A DNA stretch of 64,000 nucleotides from Algibacter amylolyticus (GTDB lineage: Bacteria > Bacteroidota > Bacteroidia > Flavobacteriales > Flavobacteriaceae): assembly GCF_014202225.1 (NCBI RefSeq), contig NZ_JACHGE010000010.1, forward strand, positions 1 through 64,000. Reading direction: 5' to 3'. The notes beneath the pieces are model-generated. The model had not been told where the DNA came from. It saw only the letters and a program-made list of their open reading frames with translations, and made no database searches. This document shows positions 60,764 to 64,000 of this stretch, in pieces. The number at the start of each line of letters is the position of its first letter. The first letter of the stretch is position 1. Both the position numbers and the translations under genes were made by a program.

Positions 60764-61155
60764 GGGGTCGACTGGTTTTGACAGCGAGATTAATTGAACG
60801 GTAAGCACGTCGTGTAATGGCATTGAAACACGTTAAAGGCTAGACCAAATTTTAAACGGCGAGAATAACTACGCTTTAGCAGCATAATTCGAATTATAGT
60901 AGAATTGGCCTAGGTACACAAGGTGTACATGCTTTATGTCTCCGGAAAGCCTTGATTGACGGCGTTCCATTTTGAGGCATCGTAAATGTCAATATAGTTT
61001 AAGTAGTGCTTTGATACTTTTACGAAACTAAAGAAGCTAAGTTATAAGTGGGTTGTCTTTAACCAGCTTATAATCGAAAACCCAAGAAAAGAATAAACGT
61101 GTAGAAAGCTCTTTGGTTACTTGTTTGGACGAGAGTTCGATTCTCTCCGACTCCA
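60764..61155 (+). ncRNA. ssrA: Transfer-messenger RNA (tmRNA)
   Basis: A 392-nt RNA that rescues stalled ribosomes and tags the broken protein. The 5' end GGGGTCGACTGGTTTTGACA and 3' end GTTCGATTCTCTCCGACTCC then A form the tRNA-like part; acceptor GGGGTCG pairs with CGACTCC. The tag reading frame (60858-60887) encodes GENNYALAA then TAA, the usual Bacteroidota-type tag. Pseudoknot-rich sequence fills the rest. CCA is not encoded. A strong terminator follows. Confidence 0.97.
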
Positions 61156-61157
61156 CT

Positions 61158-61693: not shown

Positions 61694-62056
61694 ATGAAAG
61701 AACAAGTAAAAGATGAGACTCCGGAAAATTTGAATGGTAAATTTAATTCTGCTAATTCAAAAATTGACGCCATTAAAGAACTTATTTTTGGTGAAAATAT
61801 TCAGGCATACAATTCGGAATTTGAAGCTTTAAAAGCTGATATTATTGCTAAAAAAGAGGAACTACAAAACTTAATGAGTGCTGTAGAATCTGAAATTTTA
61901 CAGAATATAGATACCTTAAGTACAGATATTAATATTAGAATTTCTGATCTAGAAAAATCTGTTGAAGATAAGCTAGATAATCTTGATGATAAAAAAGTTA
62001 ACCGAAAATTACTAAGTGAGCTTTTTATTAAATTGGGAGAGAAAATTAGTGACTAA
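61694..62056 (+). CDS. Small coiled-coil protein of the GTPase operon
   Basis: 120 residues, highly charged, no membrane segment or signal peptide. From about residue 25 to the end it is predicted by eye to be helical coiled coil (FEALKADIIAKKEELQNLMS, RISDLEKSVEDKLDNLDDKK). The end KVNRKLLSELFIKLGEKISD resembles a short amphipathic module. No family recognised. It precedes the partner gene by 14 bp, so it is the first gene of the operon. Confidence 0.65.
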   Translation: MKEQVKDETPENLNGKFNSANSKIDAIKELIFGENIQAYNSEFEALKADIIAKKEELQNLMSAVESEILQNIDTLSTDINIRISDLEKSVEDKLDNLDDKKVNRKLLSELFIKLGEKISD

Positions 62057-62070
62057 ACACTACTGCACTA

Positions 62071-62889
62071 ATGAATCAAGATGAAAAACTAAGTATCATT
62101 AAAGATATTCTGCTTACAGACGAGCGGGAGTTTACTTCATCTATTGAAAAAAAAATTAAAAGTCTTGAAAAAACTATTAATGAAAAGGAAAAACTTTCTA
62201 ATAAAGTAGATCCAATCATTGATGACAAGCTAAACAATTTTATAAAGGAAATTCCTAAAACCTTAGGACCAACCATAACCAAAACTTTAAAGGAAGAAAT
62301 TAAAAACTCGCAAGATGCCGTTGTAGAAGCTCTTTTCCCTATTATAGGAAAAATGATAAAGCGCTACATACAGCATGAAATGAAGTTATTATCCGATAAA
62401 ATTAATACACAGGTTAATAACACATTTTCTTTTAAAGGTATTTTTAGAAAAGCGAAATCTAAAGCATCTGGTGTTAATGAATCCGATTTAATACTACAAG
62501 AACTAAGCAACACTAAAATAGAGCAAGTTATTATTATTGAGAAAGGGTCTGGTATTGTTTTAGCAGAATTTTCTAAAAACAAAACAACAGATGAAGATAT
62601 GGTTGCCGGTATGCTAACCGCCATTAAAAGTTTTGTTGAAGATGCCTTTAAAAAAGAAAGCCAGAACTTACAACATATAGATTACGACCTTTACCATATT
62701 CATCTCCAAAATTTTTCTTCTTTTTATATTGCAGTGGTTATATCCGGAGCATATAACATTATTTACCAAGACAAATTAGAAGATAAAATACTAGATTTTA
62801 CAAGTAAACAAAAAGTGTCAGATATTTTGAATAACAAAGAATTAATAACCCAAAAACTAGAAGATTTCTTTAACAATGATAACATCTAA
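62071..62889 (+). CDS. Probable small-GTPase partner (coiled coil plus longin/roadblock-like domain)
   Basis: 272 residues, cytoplasmic. Residues 1-75 are charged coiled coil. SQDAVVEALFPIIGKMIKRY (about 80-100) and FKGIFRKAKSKASGV follow. The globular C-terminal part (about 135-245) includes KIEQVIIIEKGSGIVLAEFS, DEDMVAGMLTAIKSFVEDAF and DYDLYHIHLQNFSSFYIAVV. From memory this matches the N-terminal region of bacterial OmpA-family proteins that sit beside Ras-like GTPases, but the OmpA domain is missing here. The fold assignment is inference. Its stop overlaps the GTPase start by 14 bp. Confidence 0.6.
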   Translation: MNQDEKLSIIKDILLTDEREFTSSIEKKIKSLEKTINEKEKLSNKVDPIIDDKLNNFIKEIPKTLGPTITKTLKEEIKNSQDAVVEALFPIIGKMIKRYIQHEMKLLSDKINTQVNNTFSFKGIFRKAKSKASGVNESDLILQELSNTKIEQVIIIEKGSGIVLAEFSKNKTTDEDMVAGMLTAIKSFVEDAFKKESQNLQHIDYDLYHIHLQNFSSFYIAVVISGAYNIIYQDKLEDKILDFTSKQKVSDILNNKELITQKLEDFFNNDNI

Positions 62890-63364
62890 AAAAATTGTTT
62901 TAATAGGTCATTTTGGGGTAGGAAAAACATCTTTAATTAGACGTTTTGTTGAAAACACATTCTCCGAAGATTATAAAGTTACTATAGGTGTTCATATTTC
63001 TAAAAAAACTATAGAAATAGCTGAAGACGAATCTGTTTCCTTTATTATCTGGGATTTAGAAGGGCAAGATGATATTAAAAAAACTAGAGTATCATACCTA
63101 CTTGGTACACATGCCTTTATTTATGTTTTTGACCTGTCTAGACCATCGACCTTTGAAAACTTAAAAAATGAAGTTAATTACCTGCATGAAAATTACTCAA
63201 AGACTCCCCTAAAAGTTGTAGGAAATAAAGTAGATTTAGTTAATAAAGAATATTTAGCGCAATACAACGATAAATTTGATGATTTGGTCGATTTGTTTGT
63301 AAGTGCTAAAAATGGTAGTAGGGTTGAATCTCTTTTTTCTAAATTAGCTAAAGAGTTAATTTAA
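62876..63364 (+). CDS. Ras/Rab-like small GTPase
   Basis: A 162-residue single G domain of the Ras superfamily, unlike translational GTPases. G1 is GHFGVGKTS (11-19), G2 T36 (VTIGVH), G3 DLEGQ (60-64, with the catalytic Gln), G4 NKVD (117-120) and G5 SAK (143-145). The position matching Ras Gly12 is Phe13, unusual and possibly slowing hydrolysis or demanding a helper. No membrane anchor or lipid box is seen. It overlaps its partner by 14 bp and precedes the kinase by 5 bp, so these act together. Confidence 0.9.
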   Translation: MITSKKIVLIGHFGVGKTSLIRRFVENTFSEDYKVTIGVHISKKTIEIAEDESVSFIIWDLEGQDDIKKTRVSYLLGTHAFIYVFDLSRPSTFENLKNEVNYLHENYSKTPLKVVGNKVDLVNKEYLAQYNDKFDDLVDLFVSAKNGSRVESLFSKLAKELI

Positions 63365-63369
63365 GGGCC

Positions 63370-64000
63370 ATGCTAGAAGGGTATAAAAAAAAATATCACC
63401 AGAACAATTTTCAATACATTTTAGTAGATGATTTTGGCGCTGTCCTAGAAACGGATAATAATCTTTTTACGGTGCAACCCAAATCGCTTTTACAAGAGTG
63501 CCACCCGTTTTTTGAAATATTAAGCGGTTTACTTCAAGTGAATGATGAAACTTTTGAGTTTTCATGTATTAATCTCGATTTCGAGAATGAAATTCTTATT
63601 GCTGATATTACTATTATTTCTCAAAACAAAAACGAAAACCTTGTTATTTTAGAGAATTTAACAAAACACTATAACAATTACCAACTTACTGCCCAAACTA
63701 GAAACGAATCCATTATAAACTCTCAGGTTTTAGAGTTAAAAAACGAGTATTTGCTAGAAAAAGAGACCTTTAAAAACAACTTTATAGCAAACTTTAGCCA
63801 TCAACTAAGAAATCCTATAACGGCGTCCATTATTTTTAGCGATTTACTTATTAATAGTAATTTGAGTGCCGATCAAAAAAACTACTTGGATATCATTCAA
63901 TCTGCAAATAAAGATTTAAAAACTAGAATTGAAGATATTCTAGATATTTCGAAAATTGAATCTGGTAAATTAAGCTTAAACGAGAAAGTTTTCGACTTTA
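63370..64000 (+). CDS. Histidine kinase (C-terminus off window)
   Basis: 210 codons visible. The N-terminal region (to about residue 110) is a PAS-like sensor (FQYILVDDFGAVLETDNNLF), cytoplasmic with no membrane segment. A coiled-coil linker follows, then the HisKA dimerization domain with FIANFSHQLRNPITASIIFS; phospho-acceptor His144. DILDISKIESGKLSLNEKVF matches the second helix. The ATPase domain lies beyond the edge. The start is 5 bp past the GTPase stop, so GTPase state may feed into its phosphorylation (inference). Confidence 0.88.
   Translation, partial: MLEGYKKKYHQNNFQYILVDDFGAVLETDNNLFTVQPKSLLQECHPFFEILSGLLQVNDETFEFSCINLDFENEILIADITIISQNKNENLVILENLTKHYNNYQLTAQTRNESIINSQVLELKNEYLLEKETFKNNFIANFSHQLRNPITASIIFSDLLINSNLSADQKNYLDIIQSANKDLKTRIEDILDISKIESGKLSLNEKVFDF

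Follow-up and report, generated by a model that had tools for sequence, protein, structure and literature searches.

The window analysed here, bases 1–64000 of contig NZ_JACHGE010000010.1 from the 4.35-Mb genome of Algibacter amylolyticus, ends in an operon of four plus-strand genes, designated C, P, G and K, which encode a coiled-coil-like protein, a partner protein with a predicted roadblock/longin-type domain, a Rab/Ras-like small GTPase and a protein resembling a hybrid histidine kinase, respectively. By its neighbourhood and motifs, we assign this operon to the Group 1 Rup type, a kind of system known since 2014 and present here in a derived form without an OmpA anchor. The four-gene order is conserved far beyond chance, and from the genomic distribution and residue patterns of the four proteins we infer that P probably regulates the nucleotide state of G, while K would be the effector of G, a reading that extends to binding, signal direction and enzymatic activities.

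C (61694–62056; 120 residues), P (62071–62889; 272 residues), G (62876–63364; 162 residues) and K, whose N-terminal 210 residues lie in the window (63370–64000) before its edge cuts the gene, are joined by junctions of +14, −14 and +5 bp in the list of open reading frames, exactly as a first-pass annotation of this DNA, made from the sequence alone, had described. In its own genome, the full-length K has 504 residues, with its stop at contig position 64884, 884 bases past the window. The same annotation made its reading depend on relatives keeping these genes together, and they do. When species genomes were searched with a profile of P, 552 candidates were confirmed; the best 80 of them, therefore near relatives, served as related loci. 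The order C-P-G-K was found in 79 of these 80 loci, and C directly precedes P in all of them; 68 of the ordered loci consist of just the four genes, 8 carry a second K, and 3 have other extra copies of G or K between or behind. The single exception (L101) has C and P with no G or K behind, and at L058 the contig end cuts K. Throughout these 80 loci, the length of P stays within 267–291 residues.

Co-occurrence extends beyond these near relatives. Among 199 genomes of the family, P (called at E 1e-3) is present in 47 and G (called at a strict E 1e-20 that excludes other GTPases) in 43, and every one of the 43 G-positive genomes also has P. The four P-only genomes comprise a weak match (G030), fragments (G062 and G079) and a divergent C-P pair (G182, locus L145), and none of them yields a G even at E 1e-10; the sole other genome of the same genus in this survey (G044) has neither gene. 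Across 395 genomes of the phylum, P occurs in 14, all of which encode G. Short P is found in three of them, namely the genome studied here and two others of the same class (G032 and G506), and the remaining 11, all of other classes, have long P frames of 598–738 residues. In three genomes of one genus from another class (G211, G230 and G322), C-P and G are both present, on different contigs, and the unlinked G adjoins a 307-residue protein that weakly matches the profile of the K N-terminus (E 0.004–0.04). Likewise, in G158, G and K lie on a contig other than that of P. These split arrangements suggest that the genes form two pairs, C with P and G with K, which can separate but are kept together within a genome. 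Outside the phylum, plasmid pn1 of Nostoc sp. UHCC 0926, the only plasmid record found, carries C-P-G-K in the same order; its homologue of P was recovered by tblastn (33 % over 71 %), with the GTPase and K adjoining. As for the 307-residue protein (L198:5023-5946, with relatives in L199 and L200), it has no Pfam match, and its C-terminal part may resemble a degenerate class III cyclase.

The identity of G as a Ras/Rab-like GTPase, also recognized in the first-pass annotation, is clear from its match to the Pfam Ras family (E 5e-32) and from its best solved relatives, Rab1A structures (E about 1e-22). On the plus strand, G carries the G1 motif GHFGVGKT (residues 11–18; 62906–62929), with Phe where Ras has Gly12, Thr36 between G1 and G3, the G3 motif WDLEGQ (residues 59–64; 63050–63067), the G4 motif NKVD (residues 117–120; 63224–63235) and the G5 motif SAK (residues 143–145; 63302–63310). 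Judged by the frame lengths of six Ras-profile matches, the genome encodes no other stand-alone Ras-type GTPase. G contains no Cys and hence none for lipid attachment. The Phe of G1 is shared by 80 of 82 GTPases. Gln64 of G3 occupies the place of Ras Gln61, a position that is far more variable: among 81 GTPases (the window and the related loci, leaving out fragments shorter than 150 residues), it holds His in 39, Asn in 23, Gln in 10, Thr, Ser and Lys in 2 each, and Leu, Tyr and Phe in 1 each, and in far relatives it is Ser, Gly, Thr, Glu or Asp. Own-locus repeats or unlinked kinases (L001–L004 and L007) were dropped from the first residue alignments and from this far-relative comparison. Gln at this site is restricted to one clade, to which the window belongs, and on the strength of these alignments we regard it as a derived feature of that clade.

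C has no transmembrane segment (maximum 19-residue hydropathy 0.28), and its weak, sub-cut-off matches to helical families point to a coiled coil. The N-terminal half of P is helical and contains a threefold repeat, P[IT]Ixxx[LI]xxxI, at residues 48–58, 67–77 and 90–100 (62212–62370, plus strand), whose prolines (Pro48, Pro67 and Pro90) are invariant in a 20-row alignment. Further copies of this proline-started helical repeat are visible by eye in the Nostoc P. The C-terminal half holds the predicted roadblock/longin-type domain (residues 137–246; 62479–62808, plus strand), called from AlphaFold2 topology, Foldseek and weak Pfam and profile signals. In the model, which was built with 36 flavobacterial rows, a helix (137–146), two strands (149–157 and 163–168) and a helix (175–192) are followed by three strands (202–205, 208–214 and 218–225) and a helix (230–246), with a further helix running to residue 268. 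This order bears out the alpha/beta C-terminal domain that had been proposed earlier and, as a prediction, corresponds to the roadblock/longin superfold, a five-stranded sheet with helices. The mean predicted local distance difference test (pLDDT) score of the model is 58, with 75–84 in the last strands and helix.

A Foldseek comparison of this model with 350,542 PDB chains gave 797 matches; the top 50 (E 3.2e-4 to 4.7e-3) all fell, as their titles were read, into the roadblock/longin class, comprising longin, adaptor/coatomer small subunit, TRAPP, Mon1-Ccz1, Fuzzy-Inturned, Rag/LAMTOR/GATOR, dynein LC7 and MglB chains. Where a title names no more than a large complex, as several do, we take the matched chain to be of the roadblock/longin class. 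Roadblock domains have helices at both ends and longin domains have two at the C-terminal end, according to the part of PMC10933270 considered here; P carries both kinds of helix and is therefore named roadblock/longin, with no choice made between them. Pfam profiles gave faint signals in the same direction: 22 P domains from all classes matched Intu_longin_1 and Fuz_longin_1 in three cases each (best E 0.012 and 0.013), RPAP3_C in two and ten other families in one each, all below cut-off, and the window domain reached 13.9 bits against Intu_longin_1, the cut-off being 23.7 (E 0.066). P has no Roadblock/LC7 (PF03259) match above the curated cut-off, and its sequence search against solved structures produced nothing meaningful (best E 0.1 and 0.54, both unrelated).

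The first-pass annotation had also described P as stripped down relative to OmpA-bearing homologues, and this holds: the window P has no Pfam OmpA match, and 12 of 13 long P (twelve from eleven genomes of other classes plus the Nostoc one) have OmpA above the Pfam cut-off, the thirteenth (L142) falling just below it at 27.0 versus 27.2 bits. A BON domain is present in 4 of the 13. Over 19 residues, the hydropathy of the window P peaks at 1.15, against 1.88–2.64 in the long P. For the short P of L132 this value is 1.71, in what alignment places within the predicted strand region.

Full-length K has HisKA, HATPase_c and Response_reg domains by Pfam and no membrane segment, the layout of a hybrid histidine kinase. 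Its N-terminus (residues 14–97; 63409–63660, plus strand) is predicted, by fold rather than by Pfam, to be a PAS domain: the AlphaFold2 model of the first 136 residues has a mean pLDDT of 84, and by our own reading all but about 3 of 50 Foldseek PDB matches, among the matches listed, are PAS structures. None of 30 members matches a Pfam PAS family. Since the profile matches of P stay below cut-off and Pfam PAS is absent from all 30, fold prediction rather than curated profiles is what supports both the longin and the PAS call; the longin-like partner of the first-pass annotation is supported by the predicted fold of P, and its PAS-HisKA kinase by the HisKA match and a confident PAS model. The linker helix between the PAS domain and the output part of K holds a Gln (Gln109; 63694–63696, plus strand) that recurs in all 36 flavobacterial rows; of 21 diverse rows, 20 have it and one (L141) has a gap. 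Gln109 appears to be the invariant Gln of output proteins reported in PMC4316618. It stays constant while the output parts vary among hybrid kinases, plain kinases, kinase-receiver-Hpt proteins and sigma-54 activators, a pattern that favours K as an effector.

Sigma-54-activator forms of K occur at L133:2902-4656, L134:7502-9256 and L135:2895-4679 (L133 and L135 were called by Pfam scan, L134 by likeness and equal length), and with such an output the Rup module may therefore act directly on transcription. L111, L032 and L035 each carry an additional G with a short K-like protein (about 200 residues) behind it. Such short K-like proteins (132–200 residues; L111, L112, L032 and L035) consist of the PAS part and the linker, and those of L111 and L112 have no Pfam match.

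The catalytic residues of K are less orthodox than its layout. In the HisKA domain (63772–63966, plus strand), His144 is followed by Gln145 (SHQLRNP), at a position where relatives have Glu or Asp; an acidic residue after the phospho-accepting His aids autophosphorylation. The receiver of the window K has Ala at the position of the phospho-acceptor Asp. Among 79 first K, 63 have Asp at this acceptor position and 7 have Ser, while Ala and Lys occur in 4 each and Thr in 1; these receiver counts, like those of the His-box and the tree discussed below, are confined to K of 480–560 residues, by which L058 was dropped. Since the acceptor Asp is lost and Gln replaces Glu beside the His, a kinase that is weak or altered is a more likely reading of K than one that starts a relay via its own receiver; this goes against the earlier proposal that the switch feeds a phosphorelay by that route. 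Phosphotransfer from His144 to a separate regulator is possible. The sequence read beyond position 64000 contains no response regulator gene directly behind K, since the genes there run on the opposite strand, so that the regulator sought to the right of the window in the first-pass annotation is absent from that place. Other departures were seen elsewhere: in the Lacinutrix/Bizionia group (L046–L053), the second K of the tandem (e.g. L046:8941-10467) has Asn in the receiver in 8 of 8 cases, and those of L048 and L051 lack the His, so that these second copies are likely pseudokinases in part. The first K of L015 (L015:2807-3810) reads NDKLRDP in place of the His-box and is therefore missing the phospho-accepting His.

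In the clade that contains the window, several changes in G and K cluster. This clade comprises 14 loci (L005, L037–L045, L063, L204, L205 and L207); L206 is omitted, its GTPase being the same as in L040. L005 and L037 come from nearly the same species. The receiver Asp is lost in all 14, the His-box Gln is present in 13 (not L041) and the G3 Gln in 12 (not L041 and L204). All ten G3-Gln loci of the main set read SHQLRNP, and L041 has SHELRNP together with G3 Leu. Of three further loci, which share Ser at the acceptor position of the receiver, L205 and L207 show the two Gln traits and L204 combines SHQLRNP with G3 His. In a tree of 34 loci, which does not include L204, L205 and L207, each Gln trait needs two changes, and L041, which lacks both, sits inside the clade. 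These patterns suggest that GTPase and kinase change together, in few events, two of which fall on long branches of that tree. A simple trade of the G3 Gln for the linker Gln was rejected, because the window has both.

Published work describes operons of this kind, with no member experimentally characterized as of 2014. As far as the sections considered here go, the account of Wuichet and Søgaard-Andersen from 2014 (PMC4316618) forms the group from tree, taxonomy and neighbourhood, finds Rab, Ran, Ras and Rho nearest to it, and describes a neighbourhood of the same four parts, namely a Rup GTPase, a coiled-coil protein, a conserved-domain protein and an output protein with an invariant Gln in its N-terminal region, which could be the missing residue of the GTPase site, provided in trans. 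In agreement with this description, G is a Ras-type GTPase with G1–G5, Asp in G3 and no MglA insertion between G1 and G2, and the Nostoc homologue would bridge our loci to the 71 published sequences. There are differences. The group is reported there to lack the G3 Gln, which the window has; the conserved domain of P is given there as one of unknown function, often accompanied by a membrane helix and an OmpA domain, and OmpA is missing from the window P; and neither that domain nor the N-terminal domain of the output protein is assigned there, whereas here they are predicted to be roadblock/longin and PAS, respectively. The outputs listed there include cyclase/phosphodiesterase, whereas the sigma-54 activators found here are not named in the sections considered. 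New with respect to the literature found are, accordingly, the fold proposals for P and the K N-terminus, the location of the invariant Gln, K outputs of the sigma-54-activator type and the changes in GTPase and kinase that mark the window clade. No publication linking Rup or the OmpA-type partner with longin or roadblock was found in a search that covered few subscription papers.

Other small-GTPase systems offer likenesses at a greater distance. The MglA-MglB pair of Myxococcus also joins a small GTPase to a roadblock partner, and two of its structures (6izw and 6h5b) are among the 50 best matches of P. However, bacterial MglA carry an insertion between G1 and G2, whereas G aligns to Rab1A without one, P has no Robl_LC7 match above cut-off, and with both the MglA insertion and an MglB (Robl_LC7) partner missing, the operon does not belong to that family. 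Eukaryotic longin guanine nucleotide exchange factors (GEFs) for Rabs share the predicted fold class, with Mon1-Ccz1:Ypt7 (5ldd), Fuzzy-Inturned and TRAPP likewise among the 50 best matches; P differs from them in that its longin Pfam matches are below cut-off, in keeping an N-terminal helix like that of roadblock domains, and in its helical context, which is OmpA-linked in relatives. Longin domains derive from MglB-like roadblock domains according to the part of PMC3521125 considered here, and in the Mfp system, as described in the corresponding part of PMC13343842, the roadblock protein MfpD is a GTPase-activating protein (GAP) and MfpC is likely a GEF. Both papers supply analogy and not membership.

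Taken together, C and P may form one part and G and K the other part of a Group 1 Rup signalling module. P, probably dimeric through its roadblock/longin-type domain, would bind G and control its nucleotide state, by analogy with MglB on MglA and with longin dimers on Rabs. GTP-bound G would then bind K at its PAS domain and linker helix and thereby switch the output part of K, and the linker Gln of most relatives may serve, in trans, as the missing part of the GTPase site. Where relatives carry OmpA, their P may sense the envelope, and the flavobacterial P, which has no OmpA anchor, would work in the cytoplasm. Most G of the window clade have a G3 Gln of their own, and the window K would be read by G or act back on it.

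Several observations weigh against this proposal. The model of P is uncertain, with its central, most conserved helix scoring only 39–51, and none of the P domains matches a roadblock or longin Pfam profile above cut-off. A viral fusion glycoprotein model (E 0.027) slightly outranks Intu_longin_1 on the window domain, P also shows scattered weak hits to models of XRCC1_N, hemerythrin and ZorA, and alignment of the P profile with 18 Robl_LC7 rows by hhalign was weak (P-value 7.7e-4, probability 25 %). Because G has Phe in place of the Gly12 of Ras, a GAP of the Ras type that works through an arginine finger is unlikely. No fusion of G with K or of P with G was seen, the longest frame holding G having 328 residues. 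Finally, L204 led us to reject a perfect co-change of the G3 Gln and the His-box Gln, and the retention of the linker Gln in the window clade despite its G3 Gln weakens the idea of a Gln supplied in trans.

The chief rival places G below K, as has been proposed for the actinobacterial conservons. K would sense through its PAS domain and act on G, with the linker Gln serving as a GAP finger, P would hold G, and GTP-bound G would be the output. Conservons (AGPS: the kinase CvnA, the roadblock protein CvnB, CvnC and the GTPase CvnD) are likewise four-gene operons that join a kinase-like protein, a roadblock-type protein and a Ras-like GTPase, with no response regulator in the parts of PMC4316618 and PMC13343842 considered here. 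A reversed signal would also suit the retention of the linker Gln in K where most G lack the G3 Gln, and the poor prospects of the clade K as phosphorelay proteins. Conservons differ from the operon in that, in the sections considered, their GTPase is of the MglA family and CvnB is an MglB-type roadblock protein, whereas G is Rab-like, the phylum is another, and the genome studied here has no Robl_LC7 match. Against the reversed order, it is the C-terminal output of K that varies, which fits G above K. We hold that order to be unlikely, if worth serious attention.

Less likely again is a spatial module in which P, together with C, is a polar or envelope platform from which G carries K to a site in the cell, control of enzyme activity being secondary. 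The OmpA domain and hydrophobic stretch of the long P relatives, the helical repeats of P and the precedent of MglA in Myxococcus, as far as the accounts considered here describe it, would all agree with such a role, but the window P has neither an OmpA match nor a strongly hydrophobic stretch, and G offers no Cys for lipid attachment. That a GTPase, a hybrid kinase and two structural proteins merely share an operon with no joint action is scarcely credible given their conserved order among near relatives and in Nostoc, the presence of P in every G-positive family genome and co-occurrence despite lost linkage in three genomes, even though the literature found reports no physical interaction and no experimental test of this operon type, and Rup systems, Group 1 included, were experimentally uncharacterized in the 2014 account as far as considered.

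If P is indeed a roadblock/longin protein, the ancient pairing of small GTPases with roadblock/longin platforms would reach into the Rab-like branch in bacteria. In that case, the module would be a small soluble system in which the action of a roadblock/longin protein and a PAS-linked output on a Rab-like switch can be studied, and the window clade provides a natural comparison, with the G3 Gln present or absent and the receiver intact or not. A bolder combined claim, to which we give little credence as a whole, holds that the Rab-longin pair is shared by descent with eukaryotic Rab GEFs, so that the pair may have entered eukaryotes together, and that the K proteins of the clade are GTPase effectors without a relay through their own receiver, while G hydrolyses GTP by means of its new G3 Gln.

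Around the operon, the Bacteroidetes-type promoter pattern occurs 7 times in the window versus 9.2 expected, and not at all in the 1 kb before C; with a count below expectation and none near C, no promoter is claimed. A defence or phage system was rejected, PADLOC and PHROGs giving weak partial matches only. The nearest named record in the species collection, from which records of the genome itself were perhaps excluded, is Algibacter pectinivorans, with 98 % over P. Upstream of the operon, at 60764–61156, lies a transfer-messenger RNA gene with the tag GENNYALAA.

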